Shown here: one piece after another, positions 1-14,990 of the stretch | Layout of the letters: each line of letters opens with the position of its first letter | Position numbering within the stretch: the stretch's first letter is position 1 | DNA from: Ectocarpus siliculosus | Lineage: Eukaryota > Sar > Phaeophyceae > Ectocarpales > Ectocarpaceae | Length of the DNA stretch: 21,303 nucleotides | NCBI GenBank assembly: GCA_000310025.1 | Contig: FN648911.1 | Location: forward strand, 8,918-30,220 | Direction of reading: 5' to 3' | Position numbers and translations under genes: made by a program | The notes under the pieces: generated by a model | Databases searched by the model: none | Told to the model about the DNA's origin: nothing | What the model saw: only the letters and a program-made list of their open reading frames with translations

Positions 1-171
1 TGCCCAGCCGCTGCCCTGCCGCTCCGCGTGGAGGCCCGTGTCGGCATCTGGTCGCGGTTGGAGTCGTATAAGCAGCGGACCGGCGGCAGGCGGCGGGCGA
101 GCGTCAGGGCGGCGTTGCGGGAACACTTCTTTTCCTCTTCATCGTGGGCGTAGTCGATCGCGCGCCTGGAT
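1..171 (-). CDS. Partial exon of an unrecognised minus-strand gene, running off the left edge
   Basis: Reading the minus strand, a CTAAC branch-point-like sequence and CTGCAG (AG at 173-172) precede a frame that stays open from 171 to the window edge. After one leading base (A) the codons read SRRAIDYAHDEEEKK, then a Cys/Arg/Ala-rich stretch ending near STRSGRAAAG. Third positions are almost all G or C (GAC TAC GCC CAC), unlike the flanking sequence, and the acidic DEEE run is protein-like. The phase fits the exon at 2251-2378, which ends with two bases (AG), so the split codon would be AGA (Arg). I recognise no domain. The frame also stays open upstream to about 213, so the acceptor choice rests on the splice signal. 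Confidence 0.5.
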
Positions 172-450
172 CTGCAGTTAGAATGGTCTACAAATCCTAT
201 CTTCGGGCGAAACTATCTGACGTGGGTTTTCGTCGGGCCCAGAACGACGCGTTGTTATATCGCGAGCTCGCGTTAGTTCGTTCTCGACGCCTGTGGATTG
301 AATGGAGTGATTATTGCTGCTGACGCTACGGTCACCGGACGTCGACCAATCCCGAATATTTCTCTCTTTGGAACACTAGCGATGGTTTCTCTTTTTTTTT
401 TTTTTATATATATATTTTCTTGGATTCGGTGAACCCCGGTTCGCCATCGG

Positions 451-1383
451 CACGGGTGCTTCCACTCATTGGCGCGTCCCGTGCTGATACGTGTTTTTTT
501 TTTTTTTTGTCGATGCGTTGGATACGGTGAACTCCACTTGCCAACAGCGCGGGTGCTTCCACTCATTGGCGCGTCCCTCGCTGAAACTGACAACACATAT
601 GCAGCACGGGTGCTTCCACTCATTGACGCGACCCGTACTGATACTTGTACGCAGCGCGGGTGCTTCCACTCATTGGCGCGTCCCTTGCTGAAACTGACAA
701 CACATATGAGCACGGGTGCTTCCACTCATTGGCGCGTCCCGTACTGATACGTGTATGACTTCGTTTTCGATGCGTGGAGATCGGTTAATTCTACTCGCCA
801 ACAGCACGGGTGCGTCCACTCATTGGCGCGTCCCGTACTGATACGTGTACGGCGTTGTTGTTCTTTCTTTTTGAGATCGGTTAACTCTACTCGCCAACAG
901 CACTCATTGGCGCGTCCCTTGCTGAAACTGACAACACATATGCAGCACGGGTGCTTCCACTCATTGGCGCGTCCCGTACTGATACGTGTACGACTTCGTT
1001 TTCGATGCGTTGAATTCGGTTAACTCTACTCGCCAACAGCACGGGTGCGTCCACTCATTGGCGCGTCCCGTGCTGATACGTGTACGGCGTTTTGTTCTTT
1101 CTTTTTGAGATCGGTTAACTCTACTCGCCAACAGCACGAGTGCTTCCACTCGTTGGCGCGTCCCGTGCTGAGGCTGACAACACATATGCAGCACGGGTGC
1201 TTCCACTCATTGGCGCGTCCCGTACTGATGCATGATTTGTGGTATTTCCTACCGCTGCGTTGAATTCGGTTAACTCTACTCGCCAACAGCGCGGGTGCTT
1301 CCACTCATTGGCGCGTCCCGTGCTGATACGTGTACGGCGTTTTGTTCTTTCTTTTTTGAGATCGGTTAACTCCACTCGCCAAA
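451..1383. repeat. Minisatellite with 12 hairpin-forming cores and two spacer types
   Basis: A core of about 35 bp (CACGGGTGCTTCCACTCATT followed by GGCGCGTCCCGTGC) recurs near 451, 548, 604, 654, 711, 805, 899 (truncated), 946, 1040, 1134, 1192 and 1289. Spacings fall into two classes: about 47-58 bp, usually with a GAAACTGACAACACATATG spacer, and about 94-97 bp, with a GATCGGTTAACTCTACTCGC or related spacer. GCACGGG at the start and CCCGTGC at the end of many cores are reverse complements, giving a 7-bp stem around a loop of about 21 nt. The antisense frames translate to repeated peptides such as GRANEWKHP, which I read as a by-product of the repeat. The array lies inside the intron proposed between exons 2251-2378 and 1-171. 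Confidence 0.9.
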
Positions 1384-1975: not shown

Positions 1976-2250
1976 CTAAAAGTGCAGTCAGAGAAGCTGA
2001 AAAGAGACGTGGAACGATCGCCTGCTTTCTATGGTACCATCTCGGCCTAGACATTGACATAAAACACCAACGAATCGGGCGGAACACTTCGTACTTTTGA
2101 AGAGGATTGGAACCGACAGAACGACGACCTTATTCGAGCAAACATCAAAATGAGAATACCAGATAGGTGCGTATGCGAGGTAAACGAACGTACTGCAGCG
2201 TGAGAAAACACGGCAGGAATTGTAACCGCGAATCCATCCTCCACCTGTAC

Positions 2251-2378
2251 CTGTTCGCCATGCCGTAGACGACTTGGTCGGTGAAGATAGTGTCGACGCT
2301 CTCGTCCGCCAGCTCCTCACAGCGGGTCTGAAACTGCACCAGGTCGTCCATCGCCACCGCCTCCTTAACCTGGTTCAC
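2251..2378 (-). CDS. Candidate internal exon of the unrecognised left-hand gene
   Basis: On the minus strand TTCTCAG (AG at 2380-2379) precedes an open frame with strong G/C third positions: VNQVKEAVAMDDLVQF, then QTRCEELADESVDTIFTD and QVVYGMAN. It ends at AACAG followed by the donor GTACAG (2250-2245). It is 128 bp, starts in phase 0 and ends with two extra bases. This matches the one-base lead of the exon at 1-171, giving MAN-R-SRRAIDYAHDEE across the junction. The composition is acidic and helix-like. I recognise no family. The upstream partner exon was not found. Confidence 0.45.
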
Positions 2379-3092
2379 CTGAGAACCAGTGTATGCAATA
2401 CCCATCCTCTCATGAGAAACCAGACATCATCGGGTTCAGCCCCGACTTTGACGCCCAGGTCAGAAATATTTTTTTTACACAAACAAGATCATCGCCTCAC
2501 CACACCAACGACACCAGCAACAACAACCCCGAGCATCATCTGCTACGTGGTGCTCAGTTTGGCACTCGACACCGAGCCTTGACGGGAATGTTCCCCAGAT
2601 GTTGAACAATCGCAGCCCGACTGTCTGTCGAACCCACTTTGTTATCGTCATTGACTAATAGAGGGCTGCCCTGCTGCGTTTGGCGCATAGCTCCCCGAAA
2701 CGCGCATGGTTGCGCCGCATTTGTTCGGGCCTTCCATCGATACATCTTGCCCGTTTCCTTCCTCTCGCCTCAGACTCAAACCCGCCTTGCTGCTCGTGTG
2801 GCTAAGAAGTGATTTCGATTTCATGGCAGGTTTCTGTAGGTATCCTCTGTACTTGCCTGCACTCTTCCCATGGCCTTGAAGGGGTGTGACTTGGTGTACT
2901 TTTGGACCACGTAGTCCTCCGACGTTACTAGGGGCCGGACAATGTCCATCAGTCGAGCCTGTCATCACACGAGACAGGCGTAGAGGCACAGAGAAGAGAC
3001 GGAGTAAGGCAAGTCAGACAGACAGATCAGACAGAGACAGAGAGAACGCGCACACAAACAACGCGAAATAGTCGTAACATTAGTATTTCTAG
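2379..3092. other. Non-repetitive stretch with no supportable gene
   Basis: The stretch has ORFs of up to 113 codons but no coding bias across any of them. At about 2402-2452 both strands read plausibly for some 15-18 codons (plus KPDIIGFSPDFDAQ before GTCAG; minus DLGVKVGAEPDDVWFLMR), so an additional short exon is possible but undecided. From about 3010 to 3060 the sequence becomes a GACA/GAGA-rich simple repeat. It may contain 5' exons or the promoter of the left-hand gene. Confidence 0.4.
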
Positions 3093-3296
3093 AACGTCCA
3101 TGAAATGTTTCATAGATTTCTATGAAGAATTATTTCATGGACTTCCACGGACTTCCATCGACATGGTGTCATGGAGTTCCATGGATTTCCATGAAACTTT
3201 CATTTTTTCCATGGACTTCCATGGTTTCATCCATGGACGTCCATGGACTGGTTCCATGGAAGTCCATGGAACTCCATGGACTTCCATGAAATATTT
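3093..3296. repeat. CCATGG-rich self-complementary short-period array
   Basis: About 200 bp is built from variants of TTCCATGGAC, GTCCATGGA and TTTCATGGA. Because the monomer is itself palindromic (CCATGG), the array can pair with itself in many registers. The left part (ATTTCATGGACTTCCA near 3134) and the right end (TGGACTTCCATGAAATATTT near 3276) also form opposed arms. It directly flanks the decayed module at 3299-3770. No coding function is supported, although several chance ORFs cross it. Confidence 0.85.
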
Positions 3297-3298
3297 CG

Positions 3299-3770
3299 CT
3301 AAAGTATACTATAATGTAGATGACTGTTGTTCTGGTGTCCCCCGATCTTGCCCTTGTGTTGTTTGATAATGCACGGGGCTTTGGCACCACGGTTGGAACG
3401 CCGGCCCTGCCTTTCAACGATCCTGGTGACGCAGCAGTCCTCCCCGCTCAATCCGTGGGGTGGATTTTTTCTGCATACAATGCCACCGCACTCTCCGCAT
3501 CCCAACAGTCGGTGGAGGAGATCACACGCAGCAAGCGAGGTTTGGCGAGGGTTACCGGTCGGTGTGGGAAAAAAATAAAACACTATGATTATGTTGGCTA
3601 CTGCTGCTGTACATCCAACGTATCCAAAACGTGAAGCACGCCATCAGTGAGAGACGGATTTCGAGGTGTAGACGGCCGTCATTGATCAAGCAATTTGACT
3701 TGGCAATCCTCACCGGGCCACAGACCGTGCCGTTGTCGTTGTGGCCGACGCGTCCTTTCATGCCCAGAGA
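3299..3770 (-). pseudogene. Decayed seventh module (G) of the Cys-rich modular gene
   Basis: Homologues of both module exons are present in the right order and orientation. The first (ending 3714) keeps GRVGHNDNGTVC and its GTGAGG donor, but CC has become CG, and the Cys and first His of the motif before GMKG are gone. The second (3505-3299) keeps GCGECGG, GLSGEDCCVT and GAKAPCII, but one Cys is replaced by Arg (GRRSNRG). The acceptor CAACAG of intact modules reads GACTG here, without AG. It ends in KIGGHQ and runs to a stop at 3301-3299. Module A ends in RRTGGHKK, so these two share a terminal-type end without a GTAAGT donor. It lies beyond the stop of the intact gene and is probably an old terminal module that decayed. 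Confidence 0.7.
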
Positions 3771-5390
3771 GACCGATCGATGTGTTTTGCACTGGGTTGG
3801 GGGAGCTACAGCAATGCGAAAGTGTTCTTATGCAAGGCTGGGTAGAGATGAGAGCTCGCCTCACAACAGATGCACACCAGGAGTATGAAACCATTGTCGT
3901 ACTCGAGTACGGTAGTCAATGTATACCTTTGCGGGATCTTCACCAGACCACCGGAGTGAGGGAGATTCGGGACTTGGGTAGAATGAATGGAAATCTCAAC
4001 GACATTCCTGCCGTTCGTACTACTTACTGTATCTCGGATAAATTGGCAAGTAGGGAAATACGAACAAGCCTGTAGACAGAGGAGTCTGTCAAGAAACACA
4101 ATGACCAGTCAGCGCTGACTAGTAGTCTAGTGGTCATCGTGCTTTTCATAGTGTTCAGACTAGGCATGATATTATCTTTGTGCGAGCGAACGATGTCGAT
4201 ACTCTGTTCTTCGAGCCGGAGATAGTGACTGTCGGATGAAGTAGGGCGGAGGAGTGTACGAGCCTGAGGCCCAACCATAGGGAAAAGAACATTTTCAGTT
4301 GTTGTTTGCCAAAGCCGCACTGCTGTGCATGTGGTACCTGCACTCTGTGACCGGCTGGTGAAAGGGTAAGGAGGTAAGACCGTTGCACCTCGCGGCTATT
4401 AACGGCGAGGAGACACTTTAGGGCACGGCCGAGGCTTGTACATCGTGACTAGTACGGGTCTGGTGAATACCTCCTTCAGAGAATAAGAGTGGAGATGAGA
4501 ATTTTTCGTGTCTTAGGCTAGGACCGCGGAGACTTGGACCAGGGCTTCCTCATCGCGACGCCCGGAAAGAAGAACGTTTTGTCTACAGGGAATCCTTGAA
4601 TGTGAGAAGGGAAGTAAGTGTGTCTCTACCTCCAATGCCGAATTCACCCCGGGCAGAGTATTGACTGAGACTGGGGCAAATGTCGCACACGTGTTGCCAT
4701 CACGAGTTTCACTCGCAACCAAGGTCAAGCCCTACTTGGTTTCGCACCATTGGGTACGCATATTCTTCACTGTGTCGTACGGGCACTCTTGTCCCCTTTG
4801 TCCACTGACATCACACCATGGTTCCTGTTGTGAACTCATTCCCCACAGTCCACGTCGAATATTGACATTCCAAAGACACATATCCTGTTGTTCAATACTT
4901 CTCGGGTTTGGTTTCACCCTGCCTTGGGCACGAGGTTCTGCCAGCCATTTGAGTGTAACATGTGACTATTCGTACTGCAGCCGACATGGCGGGGCTGTGC
5001 TGCACGTGGTATGGAAAGAGTTTCCGCTGATGGTCACGCCCCCACCCTCCCACCCTTCCTACCAAAACATTCAAACAATACTATTCGCGCTCTCGTGAGT
5101 CTTCAAAGCATCTACGGCACACCTCTTCTCGCTCGAATACCCTAACATGAAGGGGGCACGTTACGTCACCGTGCCACAGGATGTAAACGGTACCCATTTC
5201 GCTACGATCTTGGTGCCTCCAAAGACTTTCACCATGCGGAGGACACCGCCGCAACCGCCGACACCGCCGACACCGCCGCAACCACCGCCACCGCCCCCAC
5301 AGCCGATGTCTCGACCGCATGAGCATTTCAGGATAAACATCATTGGTCCGGCCAACTAAAATCGACTATGTAGCTAGTGCTTCGATCCTT
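3771..5390. other. Diverged copy of the module-to-module spacer, downstream of the stop of the modular gene
   Basis: The right-hand part is recognisably homologous to the introns of the array. GTGAGTCTTCAA (about 5095) and ACCCATTTCGCTACGATCTT (about 5191) match the array's GTGAGTCTTCAACGTACCC and ACCCGATTCGCTACGCTCGT, and weaker similarity appears around 4820-5040. This makes 3.3-5.4 kb an old, complete repeat unit. A small minus-strand open stretch at about 4585-4515 (VLLSGRRDEEALVQVSAVLA, then stop) after CTGTAG could be an exon, but the evidence is weak. Confidence 0.5.
5236..5306. repeat. CCG/ACCGCC-rich simple repeat
   Basis: About 70 bp of degenerate CCGCCGACA and CCGCAACCG units. One plus-strand frame would read it as a Pro/Thr-rich run, and a minus frame as Gly/Cys-rich. 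It lies just downstream of the stop codon of the modular gene, within the diverged spacer copy, so I treat it as non-coding. Confidence 0.8.
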
Positions 5391-6035
5391 TTACTTTTTG
5401 TGTCCCCCGGTCCTGCGTTGGGGTCCTTTGATGATGCACGGGGCTTTAGCACCACGGTCGGAGCAACGACCCTGGCTCTGGAGGACACCGGTGACGCAGC
5501 AGTCTTCACCGCTCAATCCGCGGGGTAGGTTCTTTCTGCATCCAATGCCACCGCACTCTCCGCATCCCAGCTGTTGGTAGAGGGAGCGCGGGAGGAGGGG
5601 AAAAGGGGTTTCACCAGCGTTACACAACGTTAGAGGGGATTTTGAGCCACGGAGCTCTTCAGCAGGTCTGAGCGATCATTCAGCACCAACGAGCAATGCG
5701 ATTGCTGTTGAAGTCGGCATGTACACTTGTCCTCAAATCGGGACTATTCCTCACCGGGCAGCAGACCGTGCCCTCGTCGTTGTGGCCGACGCGTCCTTCC
5801 ATGCCCGGGTGGTAGACGTCGCAACTCTTCTGAGGTGGGCTGGGCCTGTTCTTGGGCGGGCTCGGCTTCTTCTTGGGGGCGCTCGGCTTCTTCTTGGGCG
5901 GGCTCGGCTTCTTCTTGGGGGGGCTGGGCTTCTTCTTGGGCGGGCTGGGCTTCTTTTTGGGCGGGCTCGGCTTCTTCTTGGGCGGGCTGGGCTTCTTCTT
6001 GGGCAGGCTCGGTTTCGTCGCCCGAGAAGGCTTCC
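5391..6035 (-). CDS. Module A (C-terminal), exons 6035-5755 and 5570-5391
   Basis: It has the longest linker: eight heptad units (5837-6004), including KKKPSAP and KNRPSPP, then QKSCDVYHPGMEG and GHNDEGTVCCP. The last exon lacks the GTAAGT donor of inner modules. After APCIIKGP it continues QRRTGGHKK to TAA (5393-5391), so the protein ends here. The terminal end resembles that of the decayed module G (KIGGHQ), suggesting both descend from an ancestral last module. Confidence 0.7.
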
Positions 6036-9000
6036 CTAGAGAATGGGGTGGTGATGGAATGTGCTCAAGGTGTGTGATGATAGTTAGCTGTGGAATACCT
6101 TTGAAGGCCACACGCGCTGGACACACGTTCGCTCGTTGGTACGTATCGACGTGCACGTGTACACCACGGTGCTACTTTCGAATTTCAAAACATAGTTGTA
6201 GCGCGTGACGTTTTGACACTCGACACGTTACCAACGGAAGTTGGTGGGTCTCATCAGTAGAGCATCAGACGGGAGAGCATGTCTCGGGGAGATACATCGG
6301 CCGGAACAATGACATGGGGCAAACTGACGCCTGTGTAGGAAGAGGAGCCGATGGAAAACAATGAGCTCACAACGACAAATATTCGCTCTATAACTGTACG
6401 CTGTGTGAAGTCTTGTGAAACTCTGATGCCCCTTTAGGACATACGCACGATCAGAGGGTCGCTCAGGACACAGTGCGGGTTGATGGGTTTGTAGGCAAAG
6501 TCAAGCGACAGTGCGGCTAGCGGCCACGCGTGGTGCCACCAGAGCGACCCAAGCTTGGTCGATAGCTCTGGTAAATCGAGACGAGAATCACGGCGTCTGG
6601 CCGACTCGCTAACCAACGCGATGCTTACCCACATACACGCATGTGATTTTTCCCCACGAGCTCGTCCTGTGTTGTGGTTTCCTACACAGTACACTGTACG
6701 TATGCATCGTCCGGTTCCTCTCTCTTGGACACGAGAGTTCATACCAAGACGACACGCCACGTGACATATCGTAAGGCTGCGCCATGTACACCGACAGAGT
6801 TCCCACTCCCGAACCATGTCGCGAAATACTGGTTGCCTACTGTGTGTTGGACAGGCCGATATATCCCTGAGCCCATCCAACCACAACGGCCATTCTACAT
6901 ACGTCCGTGAGTCTTCAACGTACCCAAGGCATAACTTCGTTTTCTGATACCCTTAGGACGCACTTCTGTAGTGCAAACCATACCCGATTCGCTACGCTCG
7001 TGCTGCCTCCGACTTGGACGTCTGGACGTGCCGACGACACGGCCGTTGGTTTCTCGGGCGCATCTACATGGACGGACAACGAAATATCACGGTTCCGACC
7101 GACGAAGCTCCAAGCCTTTCCCCTTGTGCTCCCTGTACTTACCGGGTCCTCGCTTGATGATGCACGGGGCTTTAGCACCACGGTCGGAGCACCGGCCCTG
7201 GCTCTGGAGGACACCGGTGACGCAGCAGTCCTCCCCACTCAATCCGCGGGGTAGGTTCTTTCTGCATCCAATGCCACCGCACTCTCCGCATCCCAGCTGT
7301 TGGTAGAGGGGGCACGGGAGGAGGCGAAAAGGGGTTTCACCAGCGTTACACAGCGTTAGAGGAGATTTTGAGCCACGGGGCTCTTCAGCAGGTCCGAGCG
7401 ATCATTCAGCACCAACGAGCAATGCGATTGCTATTGAAGTCGGCATGTACACTTGTCCTCAAATCGGGACTGTTCCTCACCGGGCAGCAGACCGTGCCCT
7501 CGTCGTTGTGGCCGACGCGTCCTTTCATGCCCGGGTGGTAGGCGTGGCAACTCTTCTGAGGTGGGCTCGGCTTCTTCTTCGGCGGGCTGGGCTTCTTCTT
7601 GGGGGCGCTCGGCTTCTTCTTGGGCGGGCTCGGTTTCTTTTTGGGCGGGCTCGGCTTCTTCTTGGGCGGGCTGGGCTTCTTCTTGGGCAGGCTCGGTTTC
7701 GTCGCCCGAGAAGGCTTCCCTAGAGAATGGGGTGGTGATGGAATGTGCTCAAGGTGTGTGATGATAGTTAGCGGTGGAATACCTTTGAAGGCCGCACGCG
7801 CTGGGTACACGTTCGCTCGTTGGTACGTATCGACGTGCACGTGTACACCACGGTGCTACTTTCGAATTTCAAAACATCGTTGTAGCGCGTGACGTTTTGA
7901 CACTCGACGCGGTACCAACGGAAGTTGGTGGGTCTCATCAGTAGAGCATCAGACGGGAGAGCATGTCTCGGGGAGATACATCGGTCGGAACAATGACATG
8001 GGGCAAACTGACGCCTGTGTAGGAAGAGGAGCCGATGGAAAACAATGAGCTCACAACGACAAATATTCGCTCTATAACTGCAACTGCAGTGTACGCTGTG
8101 TGAAGTCTTGTGAAACTGTGATGCCCTTTTAGGACATACGCACGATCAGGGTCGCTCAGGACACAGTGCGGGCTGATGCGTGTGCAGTCGGAGTCAAGCG
8201 ACAGTGCGGGCGCTAGCGGCCACGCGTGGTGCCACCAGAGCGACCCAAGCTTAGTCGATAGCTCTGGTGAATCGAGACGAGAATCACGGCGTCTGGCCGA
8301 CTCGCTAACCAACGCGATGCTTACCCACATACACGCATGTGATTTTTCCCCATGAGCGCGTCCGGTGTTGTGCTTCACGAGTATGTATGCATCGTCCGGT
8401 TCCTCTCTCTTGGACACGAGAGTTCATACCAAGACGACACGCCACGTGATATATTGTAAGGCTGCGCCATGTACACCGACAGAGTTCCCACCCCCGAACC
8501 ATGTCGCGAAATACTGGTTGCCTGTTGTGTGTTGGACAGGTCGATATATCCCTGAGCCCATCCAACCACAACGGCCATTCTACATACGTCCGTGAGTCTT
8601 CAACGTACCCAAGGCATAACTTCGTTTTCTGATACCCTCAGGACGCACTTCTGTAGTGCAAACCATACCCGTATCACTACGTTCGTGCTGCCTCCGACTT
8701 GGACATCTGGACGTGCCGACGACACGGCCGTTGGTTTCTCGGGCGCATCTACATGGACGGACAACGAAATATCACGGTTCCGACCGACCAAGCTTCGAGC
8801 CTTTCTCCTTGTGCTCCCTGGACTTACCGGGTCCTCGCTTGATGATGCACGGGGCTTTAGCACCACGGTCGGAGCACCGGCCCTGGCTCTGGAGGACACC
8901 GGTGACGCAGCAGTCCTCCCCACTCAATCCGCGGGGTAGGTTCTTCCTGCATCCAATGCCACCGCACTCTCCGCATCCCAGCTGTTGGTAGAGGGGGCAC

Positions 9001-12000
9001 GGGAGGAGGGGAAAAGGGGTTTCACCAGCGTTACACAGCGTTAGAGGGGATGTGAGCCACGGGGCTCTTCAGCAGGTCTGAGCGATCATTCAGCACCAAC
9101 GAGCAATGCGATTGCTATTGAAGTCGGCATGTACACTTGTCCTCAAATCGGGACTATTCCTCACCGGGCAGCAGACCGTGCCCTCGTCGTTGTGGCCGAC
9201 GCGTCCTTTCATACCCGGGTGGTAGGCGTGGCAACTCTTCTGAGGTGGGCTCGGCTTCTTCTTGGGCGGGCTCGGCTTCTTCTTGGGGGGGCTGGGCTTC
9301 TTCTTGGGCGGGCTCGGCTTCTTCTTGGGCGGGCTGGGCTTCTTCTTGGGCGGGCCCGGTTTCGTCGCCCGAGAAGGCTTCCCTAGAGAATGGGGTGGTG
9401 ATGGAATGTGCTCAAGGTGTGTGATGATAGTTAGCTGTGGAATACCTTTGAAGGCCGCACGCGCTGGGCACACGTTCGCTCGTTGGTACGTATCGACGTG
9501 CACGTGTACACCACGGTGCTACTTTCGAATTTCAAAACATCGTTGTAGCGCGTGACGTTTTGACACTCGACACGTTACCAACGGAAGTTGGTGGGTCTCA
9601 TCAGTAGAGCATCAGACGGGAGAGCATGTCTCGGGGAGATACATCGGCCGGAACAATGACATGGGGCAAACTGACGCCTGTGTAGGAAGAGGAGCCGATG
9701 GAAAACAATGAGCTCACAACGACAAATATTCGCTCTATAACTGCAACTGCAGTGTACGCTGTGTGAAGTCTTGTGAAACTGTGATGCCCTTTTAGGACAT
9801 ACGCACGATCAGGGTCGCTCAGGACACAGTGCGGGCTGATGCGTGTGCAGTCGGAGTCAAGCGACAGTGCGGGCGCTAGCGGCCACGCGTGTTGCCACCA
9901 GAGCGACCCAAGCTTAGTCGATAGCTCTGGTGAATCGAGACGAGAATCACGGCGTCTGGCCGACTCGCTAACCAACGCGATGCTTACCCACATACACGCA
10001 TGTGATTTTTCCCCATGAGCGCGTCCGGTGTTGTGCTTCACGAGTATGTATGCATCGTCCGGTTCCTCTCTCTTGGACACGAGAGTTCATACCAAGACGA
10101 CACGCCACGTGATATATTGTAAGGCTGCGCCATGTACACCGACAGAGTTCCCACCCCCGAACCATGTCGCGAAATACTGGTTGCCTGTTGTGTGTTGGAC
10201 AGGTCGATATATCCCTGAGCCCATCCAACCACAACGGCCATTCTACATACGTCCGTGAGTCTTCAACGTACCCAAGGCATAACTTCGTTTTCTGATACCC
10301 TCAGGACGCACTTCTGTAGTGCAAACCATACCCGTATCACTACGTTCGTGCTGCCTCCGACTTGGACATCTGGACGTGCCGACGACACGGCCGTTGGTTT
10401 CTCGGGCGCATCTACATGGACGGACAACGAAATATCACGGTTCCGACCGACCAAGCTTCGAGCCTTTCTCCTTGTGCTCCCTGGACTTACCGGGTCCTCG
10501 CTTGATGATGCACGGGGCTTTAGCACCACGGTCGGAGCACCGGCCCTGGCTCTGGAGGACACCGGTGACGCAGCAGTCCTCCCCACTCAATCCGCGGGGT
10601 AGGTTCTTCCTGCATCCAATGCCACCGCACTCTCCGCATCCCAGCTGTTGGTAGAGGGGGCACGGGAGGAGGGGAAAAGGGGTTTCACCAGCGTTACACA
10701 GCGTTAGAGGGGATGTGAGCCACGGGGCTCTTCAGCAGGTCTGAGCGATCATTCAGCACCAACGAGCAATGCGATTGCTATTGAAGTCGGCATGTACACT
10801 TGTCCTCAAATCGGGACTAGTCCTCACCGGGCAGCAGACCGTGCCCTCGTCGTTGTGGCCGACGCGTCCTTTCATGCCCGGGTGGTAGGCGTGGCAACTC
10901 CTCTGAGGTGGGCTCGGCTTCTTCTTGCGCGGGCTCGGCTTCTTCTTGGGGGGGCTGGGCTTCTTCTTGGGCGGGCTCGGCTTCTTCTTGGGCGGGCTGG
11001 GCTTCTTCTTGGGCGGGCCCGGTTTCGTCGCCCGAGAAGGCTTCCCTAGAGAATGGGGTGGTGATGGAATGTGCTCAAGGTGTGTGATGATAGTTAGCTG
11101 TGGAATACCTTTGAAGGCCGCACGCGCTGGGCACACGTTCGCTCGTTGGTACGTATCGACGTGCACGTGTACACCACGGTGCTACTTTCGAATTTCAAAA
11201 CATCGTTGTAGCGCGTGACGTTTTGACACTCGACACGGTACCAACGGAAGTTCGTGGGTCTCAGCAGTAGAGCATCAGACGAAGGAGTATAACGAGAGCA
11301 TGTCTCGGGGAGATACATCGGTCGGAACAACGATATGGCGCAAACTGACGCCTGTGTGGGAAGAGGAGCCGATGGAAAACAATGAGCTCACAACGACAAA
11401 TATTCGCCCTATAACTGCAACTGCAGTGTACGCTGTGTGAAGTCTTGTGAAACTCTGATGCCCCTTTAGGACATACGCACGATCAGAGGGTCGCTCAGGA
11501 CACAGTGCGGGTTGATGCGTGTGCAGGCAAAGTCAAGCGACAGTGCGGGCGCTAGCGGCCACGCGTGTTGCCACCAGAGCGACCCAAGCTTAGTCGATAG
11601 CTCTGGTAAATCGAGACGAGAATCACGGCGTCTGGCCGACTCGCTAACCAACGCGATGCTTACCATACACGCATGTGATTTGTCCCCACGAGCTCGTCCT
11701 GTGTTGTGGTTCCCTACACAGTACACTGTACGTATGCATCGTCCGGTTCCTCTCTCTTGGACACGAGAGTTCATACCAAGACGACACGCCACGTGACATA
11801 TCGTAGGGCTGCGCCATGTACACCGACAGAGTTCCCACTCCCGAACCATGTCGCGAAATACTGGTTGCGTACTGTGTGTTGGACAGGCCGATATATCCCT
11901 GAGCCCATCCAACCAACGGCCATTCTACATACGTCCGTGAGTCTTCAACGTACCCAAGGCATAACTTCGTTTTCTGATACCCTCGGGACCCGCTATCCTG

Positions 12001-14990
12001 TAGTGTAAGCCATACCCGTATCGCTACGTTCGTGCTGCCTCCGACTTGGACGTCTGGACGTGCCGACGACACGGCCGTTGGTTTCTCGGGCGCATCTACA
12101 TAGACGGACAACGAAATATCACGGTTCCGACCGACGAAGCTCCAAGCCTTTCCCCTCTTGCTCCCTGTACTTACCGGGTCCTCGCTTGATGATGCACGGG
12201 GCTTTAGCACCACGGTCGGAGCACCGGCCCTGGCTCTGGAGGACACCGGTGACGCAGCAGTCCTCCCCACTCAATCCGCGGGGTAGGTTCTTTCTGCATC
12301 CAATGCCACCGCACTCTCCGCATCCCAGCTGTTGGTAGAGGGGGCACGGGAGGAGGGGAAAAGGGGTTTCACCAGCGTTACACAGCGTTAGAGGAGATTT
12401 TGAGCCACGGGGCTCTTCAGCAGGTCTGAGCGTTCATTCAGCACCAACGAGCAATGCGATTGCTATTGAAGTCGGCATGTACACTTGTCCTCAAATCGGG
12501 ACTGTTCCTCACCGGGCAGCAGACCGTGCCCTCGTCGTTGTGGCCGACGCGTCCTTTCATGCCCGGGTGGTAGGCGTGGCAACTCCTCTGAGGTGGGCTC
12601 GGCTTCTTCTTGGGCGGGCTCGGCTTCTTCTTGGGCGGGCTCGGCGTCTTCTTGGGCGGGCTCGGCTTCTTCTTGGGCGGGCTGGGCTTCTTCTTGGGCG
12701 GGCCCGGTTTCGTCGCCCGGGAAGGCTTCCCTAGAGAATGGGGTGGTGATGGAATGTGCTCAAGGTGTGTGTGATGATAGTTAGCGGTGGAATACCTTTG
12801 AAGGCCACACGCGCTGGGCACACGTTCGCTCGTTGGTACGTATCGACGTGCACGTGTACACCACGGTGCTACTTTCGAATTTCAAAACATCGTTGTAGCG
12901 CGTGACGTTTTGACACTCGACACGGTACCAACGGAAGTTGGTGGGTCTCATCAGTAGAGCATCAGACGGAAGAGTATAACGAGAGAGCGTCTCGGGGAGA
13001 TACATCGGTCAGAACAATGACATGGGGCAAACTGACGCTTGTGTGTAGGAAGAGGAGCCGATGGAAAACAATGAGCTCACAACGACAAATATTCGCTCTA
13101 TAACTGCAACTGCAGTGTACGCTGTGTGAAGTCTTGTGAAACTCTGATGCCCCATTAGGACATACGCACGATCAGAGGGTCGCTCAGGACACAGTGCGGG
13201 CTGATGGGTGTGCAGGCAACGTCAAAAGCGACAGTGCGGGCGCTAGCGGCCACGCGTGGTGCCACCATTGCGACCCAAGCTTGGTCGATAGCTCTGGAAA
13301 ATAGAGACGAGAATCACGGCTTCTGGTCAACTCGCTAACCAACGCGATGCTTACCATACACGCACGTGATTTTTCCCCACGAGCGCGTCCTGTGTTGTGC
13401 TTCACAAGTATGTATGCATCGTCCGGTTCCTCTCTCTTGGACATGAGAGTTCATACCAAGACGACACGCCACGTGATATATCGTAGGGCTGCGCCATGTA
13501 CACCGACAGAGTTCCCACCCCCGAACCATGTCGCGAAATACTGGTTGCGTACTGTGTGTTGGACAGGCCGATATATCCCTGAGCCCATCCAACCACAACG
13601 ACCATTCTACATACGTCCGTGAGTCTTCAACGTACCCAAGGCATAACTTCGTTTTCTGATACCCTCGGGACCCGCTATCCTGTAGTGTAAGCCATACCCG
13701 TATCGCTACGTTCGTGCTGCCTCCGACTTGGACGTCTGGACGTGCCGACGACACGGCCGTTGGGTTTCTCGGGCGTACACAGGTGGAGGTCGACCCCCCT
13801 TCCCCAAAATGTCGGATGCCCTCGCCCCGTTGTGGGGACCTTGACAAGGTCGAACACCTTGGAGAAGACAACCAAGGCCTCAGAAATGCCTCGATTTCTC
13901 CCCTTTTCGAGTGCCTCGGTTGTCTTCTCCAAGGTGTTCGACCTTCTCAAGGTCTCCACAAGGGGGGGAAGGCATCCGGACATTTTGGGGAAGGGGGATG
14001 GACGTCCACCTGTGTATCTACATAGACGGGCAACGAAATATCATGGTTCCGACCGACCAAGCTTCGAGCCTTTCCCCTTGTGCTCCCTGGACTTACCGGG
14101 TCCTCGCTTGATGATGCACGGGGCTTTAGCACCACGGTCGGAGCACCGGCCCTGGCTCTGGAGGACACCGGTGACGCAGCAGTCCTCCCCGCTCAAGCCG
14201 CGGGGTAGGTTCTTCCTGCATTCAATGCCACCGCACTCCCCGCATCCCAGCTGTCGGCATAGAGGAGCAATTACGGCAGTAGATGTTTGGCGAGAGGGTG
14301 GTTGGTGTCGAAGCGACGGAGCTCTTTAACAGGTCCGAACGTGCAGCATGTGCAAGTGACGGACGGGTTTCGGGTGTACACGGCCGTCACGGGGCACCAC
14401 CGTCATCCAACTTGATCTGGCACAATCCTCGTAGAGTCAACAGCAATCCTCACCGGGCAACAGACCGTGCCGTTGTCGTTGTGGCCGACGCGTCCTTCCA
14501 TGCCCGGGTGGAAGACTGCGCAGCTCTGCTGGCGCGGTGGCGGCTTGGTCGGCGAGGAAGGTCTACCTGGAGATATGGTCGTCACGGAATGAAGTGTGCT
14601 TATGGGTGCATATGCTGTGCGGTCACATGAACGGCAAGGACAGCGACCCCAATCATTGGTATGGGAAGCGTCCGTGATTCGACACGGGAAGAACCACAAA
14701 GGGCCTTCCACATCTGTGAAATTGGCGGGCTCCGTGAGAGGTGGCGTGAAGATCATGGGTTACTGGGGCACCTGTCCCAAGTGAAATCGCGGTGAGTCAT
14801 TGCCGCGTTACGTCACGGCCCAGTGTCTGCATCTCTTCGTCCTTCAGGGCGTGGGCGTGGTTTCCGCGTAATGCTACCATGTGGAAGTGGAAGTCTTCCT
14901 CAACCACTTTCACTCACCACCGGCCACGGACATGACGAGCATGGCCATCACCAGAAGCTTTCCCCGTGATGACGAGCCGACACGTGCCAT
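5391..14990 (-). CDS. Secreted modular Cys-rich/Pro-Lys-rich protein, 13-exon model, six tandem modules
   Basis: Proposed exons, 5' to 3': 14990-14918, 14566-14454, 14250-14097, 12730-12513, 12328-12175, 11045-10828, 10644-10491, 9382-9165, 8981-8828, 7719-7481, 7296-7143, 6035-5755, 5570-5391. They sum to 2310 bases, or 769 residues plus TAA. All introns have GT/AG ends, and donors are GTGAGT, GTGAGG or GTAAGT. Phases agree at every junction: phase 1 into each module, phase 0 within it, phase 1 out. The protein is a signal peptide followed by six copies of linker plus Cys-rich domain. Between Pro/Lys linkers each domain follows C-x3-H-x8-H-x6-CC-P-x-G-C-x2-C-x4-C-x12-CC-x10-C-x8-C. Secretion, disulfides and KPSPP-rich linkers suggest a cell-wall or extracellular-matrix protein; this is inference. 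A cluster of separate two-exon genes is the alternative, but inner modules lack a start codon exon, a signal peptide or a stop. Confidence 0.75.
7143..7719 (-). CDS. Module B, exons 7719-7481 and 7296-7143
   Basis: The phase-1 acceptor leads into KPSRATKPSLP and six linker units (7563-7688), one with Ala (KKKPSAP). QKSCHAYHPGMKG and GHNDEGTVCCP follow. The first exon is 239 bp, exactly one 21-bp unit longer than in modules C to E. The second exon is the standard 154 bp and ends at GTAAGTAC. Confidence 0.7.
8828..9382 (-). CDS. Module C, exons 9382-9165 and 8981-8828
   Basis: The phase-1 acceptor CTCTAG leads into KPSRATKPGPP, five perfect KKKPSPP units (9247-9351), QKSCHAYHPGMKG and GHNDEGTVCCP. 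After a 183-bp intron the seven-Cys exon ends at GTAAGT. The exon-3 peptide is identical to that of module D, and the flanking introns differ at only a few bases, marking C and D as the youngest pair. Confidence 0.7.
10491..11045 (-). CDS. Module D, exons 11045-10828 and 10644-10491
   Basis: It has the same structure and phases as module E, with five linker units (10910-11014), one of them KKKPSPR. The 183-bp internal intron and the seven-Cys exon are almost identical to those of module C. The long intron downstream of it is 1108 bp, the same length as that of module C. Confidence 0.7.
12175..12730 (-). CDS. Module E, exons 12730-12513 and 12328-12175
   Basis: The acceptor CATTCTCTAG is followed by GG, completing a Gly codon, then KPSRATKPGPP and five seven-residue linker units (12595-12699), one of them KKTPSPP. 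QRSCHAYHPGMKG and GHNDEGTVCCP end at the GTGAGG donor. A 184-bp intron leads to the seven-Cys exon (LGCGECGGIGCRKN to KRGP), which ends at GTAAGT. The frame is intact throughout. Confidence 0.7.
13776..14016. mobile_element. Foldback MITE, 237 bp plus TA duplication, in the module F-E intron
   Basis: Two long arms are near-perfect reverse complements. The left arm runs CACAGGTGGA, CCCCAAAATGTC, GAACACCTTGGAGAAGACAA; the right arm ends TTGTCTTCTCCAAGGTGTTC, GACATTTTGGGG, TCCACCTGTG. The element (13778-14014) is flanked by TA on both sides. The paralogous sites in other units read CTCGGGCGCATCTACAT with no insert, so they act as empty alleles differing by one transition at the TA. The intron is exactly 237 bp longer than that of module E (1366 against 1129). 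TA duplication and terminal repeats suggest mobilisation by a Tc1/mariner-type transposase. No transposase is encoded. Confidence 0.85.
14097..14566 (-). CDS. Module F (first), exons 14566-14454 and 14250-14097
   Basis: The first exon follows ATATCTCCAG, starts with GT (completing a Gly codon) and encodes a short linker (RPSSPTKPPPRQQ) without Lys heptads. SCAVFHPGMEG and GHNDNGTVCCP follow, up to the donor GTGAGG. After a 203-bp phase-0 intron the second exon encodes LGCGECGGIECRKN, GLSGEDCCVTG and GAKAPCIIKRGP, ending one base into a codon before GTAAGT. It is the most diverged intact module: Asn for Glu in GHNDNG, Glu for Gly in GGIEC, no heptads. It is probably closest to the founding module. 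Confidence 0.7.
14918..14990 (-). CDS. Exon 1: signal peptide of the modular gene
   Basis: ATG at 14990-14988 sits in a good start context (AAAGCCATGG) and is the first Met after an in-frame TAG five codons upstream. The 24 codons give a basic n-region (MARVGSSSRGK), a hydrophobic core (LLVMAMLVMSVA) and a Ser-x-Ala cleavage site before Gly. The exon ends with one base (G) before the donor GTGAGTG (14917-14911). That phase matches the acceptor at 14567, giving a Gly codon at the junction and then RPSSPTKPPP. Confidence 0.75.

Follow-up and report, generated by a model that had tools for sequence, protein, structure and literature searches.

Kringles are disulphide-rich domains. In LPA, the kringle IV type 2 (KIV-2) domain is encoded by two exons within units of ~5.6 kb, of which an allele can carry up to 40 repeats (PMC11201333), and this kringle array has been named as an exonic variable number tandem repeat (PMC12776774). 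Class 1-1 exon shuffling is treated as restricted to Metazoa in PMC8001218, which asks why this is so and why class 1-1 was preferred, and in which phase-1 introns are expected behind signal peptides and at Gly-rich junctions. As for brown algae, exon shuffling as such has already been reported (PMC11378527): their LRR-ROCO genes hold tandem symmetrical LRR exons of 72 bp in phase 2, one per repeat (PMC11378527), while NB-ARC-TPR exon arrays of brown algae are mentioned in PMC12879055, and WSC and AGP proteins are counted among the brown algal wall proteins (PMC8307928). In this study, we analyzed 21,303 nucleotides of the brown alga Ectocarpus siliculosus (GenBank assembly GCA_000310025.1, contig FN648911.1, positions 8,918 to 30,220), hereafter the window, which contains a tandem array with a period of 1.68 kb. 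With a probability of about 0.8, the array is one brown algal gene for a predicted secreted protein of six 10-Cys domains, mostly placed behind basic Lys/Pro/Ser linkers and encoded by class 1-1 two-exon modules.

LPA KIV-2 is the closest known architecture, with the window gene set inside a larger class 1-1 family. In both cases, a two-exon domain recurs as near-identical multi-kilobase tandem units within one gene and one frame. The window gene differs in its domain (no Pfam hit), its host and an additional 21-nt repeat nested in the first exon of each module; furthermore, copy number is polymorphic in LPA, whereas the window gene is known from one genome. With the metazoan class 1-1 modules (Patthy), it shares the phase-1 borders, the Gly junction, the first phase-1 intron behind a signal-peptide-like exon, and a domain used both repeatedly and beside another extracellular domain, although here the organism is a brown alga and the domain has no Pfam model. 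The tandem symmetrical exons within one gene also resemble those of the brown algal LRR-ROCO and NB-ARC-TPR genes. Unlike the LRR-ROCO genes, however, the window gene uses phase 1 and two exons per module and encodes a Cys-rich, predicted secreted product, and its module exons of 113-281 and 154-180 nt, in phases 1/0 and with no Pfam hit, place it outside both groups. Brown algal WSC/AGP-like wall proteins are likewise predicted to be secreted and have Pro/Ser-containing linkers, and some open frames join WSC to a member of the wider family of the window domain. In contrast, the linkers of the window gene are mainly PKKKPSP, and no WSC match was listed on its contig or on the two contigs carrying its second copy (C62 and C240, see below) among the best 150 of 244 candidates.

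The window covers the final 21.3 kb of contig C345, which is 30.2 kb long and belongs to a genome of 189 Mb in 492 contigs; C345, C62, C240, C2, C9, C4, C23 and the other C-numbers used below denote contigs of this same genome. The gene model was read from the genomic sequence as predicted splice sites, phases and frame, and its conservation in a second copy and in paralogues as well as the traces of unit exchange were observed at the same level. On the minus strand, 13 exons running from 14990 to 5391 were spliced to a 2310-nt frame of 769 amino acids with 0 internal stops, with GT..AG at all 12 introns. Exon 1 (14918..14990) carries the start codon, encodes the signal-peptide-like sequence MARVGSSSRGKLLVMAMLVMSVAGG and closes in phase 1 at G|gtgagt; it was found once in the window (E 1e-12, the next best match having E 0.2 or worse) and has homologues on C240, C2 and C9, the hydrophobic 11-mer of these four exons having a mean hydropathy of 2.3-3.0. 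Each of the six following modules is composed of an exon A and an exon B. The module-first acceptors are all in phase 1 (6/6; G|GT once and G|GG five times, the codon always being Gly), the two exons are separated at CCG|CTG (CCP|L) by a phase-0 intron of 183-203 bp in 6/6 modules, and modules 1-5 close in phase 1 at CCCG|GTAAGT (5/5).

Module 1 consists of a 113-nt exon A (14454..14566), which encodes a short linker without PKKKPSP repeats, and a 154-nt exon B (14097..14250) with 7 Cys, close to which the array homology begins (~14265). In modules 2, 3 and 4, exon A has 218 nt (12513..12730, encoding a Lys/Pro linker and 3 Cys; 10828..11045; 9165..9382), and it is extended to 239 nt in module 5 (7481..7719) and to 281 nt in module 6 (5755..6035), which has the longest linker; the exon A lengths thus differ by multiples of 21 nt. 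The frame runs on through the exons B of modules 2-5 (12175..12328, 10491..10644, 8828..8981 and 7143..7296) into that of module 6, which was found together with a terminal tail at 5391..5570. In this last module, another sequence stands where modules 1-5 have the GTAAGT donor, and the frame continues into the tail up to the stop at 5391; by eye, the tail looks homologous to the intron start of the other units. The inter-module introns measure 1107-1129 bp except for the first one, which has 1366 bp because a 239-bp foldback element sits in it, and the units accordingly measure 1.66-1.73 kb, or 1.92 kb where the element is included. Every splice coordinate named in the original prediction (14918/14566, 14454/14250, 14097/12730 and the equivalents down to 5570, with the stop at 5391) was found, together with the phases that it had claimed and its single exon 1 at the right end and single stop at the left end; as a sequence observation, it is confirmed. 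The predicted product contains 60 Cys (10 per module), 123 Lys and 137 Pro, and beyond residue 25 its Lys and Arg exceed its Asp and Glu by 131. PKKKP-like patterns matched 0, 5, 4, 5, 6 and 8 times in exons A of modules 1-6, and the GC content at codon positions 1/2/3 of the spliced frame was 0.565, 0.601 and 0.799.

Paralogous arrays were found on C2, C9 and C4. One clear exon-1 homologue accompanies each of the arrays on C2 and C9, and none was found on C4. The CCP|L split recurs in 14/14 modules for which both halves were found, its donors including one GC and two weak GT. Donors scoring ≥5 were in phase 1 in 10/10 cases (of 14 modules), and the top-ranked first acceptor was in phase 1 in 12/14, four of them ties. 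The open spliced frame, the single exon 1, the second copy and these paralogues support the claim of the original prediction that the array is one gene, and it is very likely that the six modules form one transcription unit.

How this unit would be spliced is another matter. It is possible, if somewhat doubtful, that the modules serve as alternative cassettes, in which case skipping and intron retention would yield isoforms of one to six domains, and splicing, not DNA copy number alone, would set the valency. Every module is in frame, as such cassettes would be, and alternative splicing is reported for the LRR exons repeated in tandem in the ROCO genes of brown algae (PMC11378527). In addition, reading through exons B1-B5 (e.g. 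from 14097 downwards) into the long intron leaves 17 open codons, e.g. KSREHKGKGSKLGRSEP, followed by a stop in 5/5 cases, so that truncated forms with a short, mostly basic tail are possible by intron retention. However, the five internal donors are identical (GTAAGT), suggesting that none of the modules is a weak cassette, and the retention tail may be conserved only through homogenization of the units.

The phase-1 borders extend to a wider family. With one module as a query, 123 matches at E ≤ 1 were obtained in the genome (exon halves counted apart, some on near-duplicate contigs), which would correspond to about 100 domain places; 95 were left after removal of the window family and six exon halves. 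Splice sites were scored in 54 further loci with 69 domain copies, of which 10 without the anchoring Cys motif were dropped and 59 analyzed. Donors scoring ≥5 were present in 35 of the 59 domains and lay in phase 1 in 35/35 (32 distinct domain sequences), and acceptors above threshold were present in 33 of the 59, with phase 1 in 28/33 (30 distinct); since the copies are related and the thresholds were our own choice, these counts are not independent trials. The domain was one open stretch in the wider-family copies examined, and it is the phase-0 split that distinguishes the window family with its C2, C9 and C4 relatives. In this genome, the Cys-rich domain thus appears commonly to be one exon between phase-1 introns. 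Tandem repeats of the domain as separate open stretches were seen at C4:5413000-5422900 and on C11, C12, C26 and C207. At one of these loci (L082, C11:2182000-2191900), a segment of ~3.1 kb is duplicated, each copy with two domain-bearing open stretches, which suggests the same kind of expansion elsewhere. That the 1-1 phase is merely incidental, the introns of the genome being mostly in phase 1 near Gly codons, is unlikely: the Gly junction codon in 6/6 modules is what a GG proto-splice site would give, but in these very modules the domain is interrupted by a phase-0 intron, and phase 2 is reported for the LRR exons of brown algae (PMC11378527).

A second, diverged copy was identified, whose flanks are ~90-95% identical to those of the locus in the window; it is split at the array between C62 and C240. 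C240 starts with exon 1, which has an in-frame 3-nt insertion, and modules 1-2, and C62 ends with two modules, the second of which has its stop where C345 has it. Both contigs break within the array, in the one genome available, and they do so at almost equal positions of the unit (7850 and 7889 in window terms); if they belong to one gene, the second copy would have at least four modules, the breakpoints fitting either four modules with a 39-bp gap or any larger number. The four modules of C62 and C240 are open when spliced at the C345 sites, with start, splice sites, stop and frame kept, and the linker length differs, exon A of the last module being shorter in C62 (260 nt) than in C345 (281 nt). 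Indels within exon A were multiples of 3 in 49/49 pairwise cases (multiples of the 21-nt repeat) and none occurred in exon B, compared with 32/98, 0/60, 22/60 and 6/68 multiples of 3 in four intron segments; these pairwise counts share events among pairs and are therefore not independent. Between the copies, 13 synonymous changes at ~196 sites were counted against 10 nonsynonymous changes at ~656 sites, summed over four module pairs. Four lines, namely the second copy, the indels, the synonymous excess and the paralogues, agree in indicating that the locus is a gene and not a product of chance.

Simple allelism of C345 and C62/C240 is not supported: the other half of C240 is 97-99% identical to C23:709047-727444, whereas C345 is 89-96% identical to C240 in the aligned pieces, and segments of C62 and of C240 alternate in the left flank of C345. 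Near C23:709047-727444, no module match was found among the matches listed, and N stretches occur in that region.

The same comparison makes it improbable that a pseudogene in decay, or a satellite that expands passively and happens to include old exons, accounts for the array. A decayed module does lie next door, and C345, C62 and C240 are mutually rearranged; yet all six modules, like the four of the second copy, have an intact frame with intact Cys residues and splice sites, the changes in exon length keep the frame, and nonsynonymous changes are depleted between the copies. Barely credible, finally, is the notion of one small independent gene per 1.68-kb unit, each with its own promoter and with a first exon concealed in the long intron, since, common as tandem gene arrays are and even though the long introns hold stop-to-stop stretches of 152-203 codons, none of the units contains an exon-1 homologue, no Met codon occurs in the open stretch entering exons A2-A6 (5/5), no stop follows exons B1-B5 unless the intron is retained, and the long introns gave no blastn match to the C2, C9 and C4 arrays at E ≤ 1e-3, whereas the exons plus up to ~40 nt beside them match.

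As for the growth of the single gene, the original prediction had held that symmetrical 1-1 modules can be gained or lost without breaking the frame, by unequal crossing-over inside the long intron. The first part is supported: in-register exchange adds 372 + 21n exonic nt, always a multiple of 3, and the exon-A indels and the conserved phases point the same way. Frame safety needs only an exonic length per period divisible by 3, of which the phase symmetry is a restatement. The second part fared less well. In a self-comparison, the repeat register extends from ~14265, 15 nt ahead of exon B1, to ~5421 in exon B6. Between modules 1 and 2, exon A1 and its phase-0 intron differ by 25% and 46%, respectively, whereas exon B1 and the next intron differ by 3-6%; the array therefore consists of B1 and five periods of long intron, exon A, short intron and exon B. 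With the repeat edges at exon B, the founding exchange, or else the limit of homogenization, is placed at exon B rather than within the long intron.

Later exchange, however, may well have used the long intron. Among units 1, 2, 4 and 5, the informative sites showed 12 changes, compared with 18.3 in shuffles (fraction 0.009; 0.014 in a three-unit version), and such clustered mosaic sites, mainly within the long intron, are consistent with exchange tracts there. Units 3 and 4, with 10 differing sites of ~1663 aligned and none at unit positions 226-1154, look like a recent duplication. One C240 module and one C62 module were 0-1.2% apart in the long intron, whereas C345 was 5.5-9.6% from C62/C240, so that each copy seems to have been homogenized on its own. 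The simplest course would begin with an ancestor of at least two modules, in which unequal exchange between exon B copies created the 1.68-kb period of long intron, exon A, short intron and exon B. This period would then have expanded and been homogenized by unequal crossing-over or gene conversion, the 21-nt repeat within exon A varying in parallel; alternatively, the ends of the array may merely have escaped homogenization, which would account for the edges. Taken as a whole, the interpretation given in the original prediction is partly supported.

The company that the domain keeps was assessed by means of WSC, which gave 102 matches in the genome (best 150 of 244 candidates scored). WSC was found within 5 kb on the same strand in 13 pairs, involving 10/95 domain places in five regions, compared with 0.26 pairs expected under uniform placement, an assumption from which both families depart in being clustered; on the opposite strand, 0 pairs were found within 5 kb. 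In three loci (L054, L057 and L065), the C-terminal half of WSC directly precedes the Cys-rich domain in one open frame, with Pfam E values of 3.4e-7, 1.2e-5 and 1.5e-5, respectively, only the first of which passes the curated cut-off. Through these open frames and same-strand neighbours, the domain is found in different architectures, in the manner of a class 1-1 module.

Searches with the domain itself returned little. For one module, typed with a composite linker, 0 Pfam families were obtained at E ≤ 1, including no kringle match, and no NCBIfam match at E ≤ 10. Among solved structures, PDE6 gamma was matched twice, but weakly (E 0.24 and 0.32) and over query residues 8-53, which span the linker and the start of the domain; both matches were rejected. 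A candidate viral relative (L036), the 1 of 13 pattern-matching stretches confirmed in viral contigs, was likewise set aside, the match covering query residues 1-40 only in a 479-aa frame without the full Cys pattern. By inspection, none of the 6 genome hits of Laminin_G_3 lay near a domain place, and a bacterial promoter and terminator scan of the 5' region found nothing, which is uninformative for a eukaryote. The EsV_1_7_cys family (PF19114) is expanded in brown algae; 150/150 scored candidates for it matched here (of 880 at first look) and 0/14 control genomes did, the controls named in another search being prokaryotes, so that other eukaryotes are not excluded by them. In searches of open-licence papers, the titles and abstract beginnings listed described neither the Cys-rich domain nor any class 1-1 modules of brown algae.

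Anionic polysaccharides abound in the wall of brown algae. In such a setting, the predicted secretion, the high Cys content, the multivalency and the polycationic spacers of the product together suggest that it binds or cross-links the matrix. Such an extracellular-matrix protein would have folded domains spaced by linkers that bind the anionic wall polysaccharides, and more modules would mean a higher valency.

Several points weigh against the reading of the array as one gene for a secreted protein of class 1-1 modules. Between the copies, exon A diverges about as much as the introns (6.6% versus 5.4-8.2%, unit 5 versus C62), and the Ka/Ks ratios of the window family against C2 or C9 modules are high (0.56, 0.72 and 0.94). 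In the wider family, 5/33 scored acceptors were not in phase 1 (four in phase 0 and one in phase 2). The self-chosen splice thresholds, the clustering that underlies the WSC expectation and the possible truncated forms count on the same side. With regard to the product, exon B folded alone gave a pLDDT of 44.6, unusable as a structure, the predicted signal peptide was judged by hydropathy and conservation alone, and the binding of polysaccharides by the linkers is something we infer.

Of wider significance than the single gene is the family of class 1-1 modules spread over the genome. A 2012 paper reportedly described exon shuffling in receptors of brown algae. The chances seem to us about even that a system of class 1-1 exon modules for extracellular proteins arose in brown algae independently of that in animals, in which a Cys-rich domain, present at ~100 places, was spread and multiplied via phase-1 introns, joined to WSC, and is still expanding in the window as two-exon units. 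Class 1-1 shuffling has been discussed as a trait of animals and linked to their multicellularity (PMC8001218), and a lineage of independent complex multicellularity with the same phase, Gly junction and signal-peptide intron would be a natural replicate. The window gene lets module number be measured directly in natural strains.

In the surroundings of the gene, the decayed seventh module occupies 3332..3810 on the minus strand, outside the gene; its acceptor AG is replaced, two Cys are lost, and its tail most resembles that of module 6. Its end coincides with the point at which collinearity with C62 is lost (window 3775), as though another copy of the gene finished here. The foldback element of the first inter-module intron (13776..14016; 239 bp, MITE-like (miniature inverted-repeat transposable element), with 85-nt arms and flanked by TA) is absent from the same site of C240. 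It had 87 genome matches counting both strands (best 40 of 76 candidates scored), with another copy at C62:244375-244610. In the left flank, window positions 1-1382 and 1387-1614 correspond to C62:231656-233040 and C62:234278-234505 (97.7 and 99.6% identity), and 2143-3079 to C240:21237-22170 (96.3%), the matching segments lying far apart on C62 and C240. Long N stretches border or lie in C345:1-8917 (L016), C240:12479-21236 and C23:727778-731500. The left flank also holds a tandem repeat at 439-1382 with a ~40-nt core, CAGCACGGGTGCTTCCACTCATTGGCGCGTCCCGTACTG, in nested periods of 56, 95, 155 and 235 bp, a perfect GCA run of 19.3 copies at 1917-1974, and dense CATGGACTTC-type repeats at 3170-3288.

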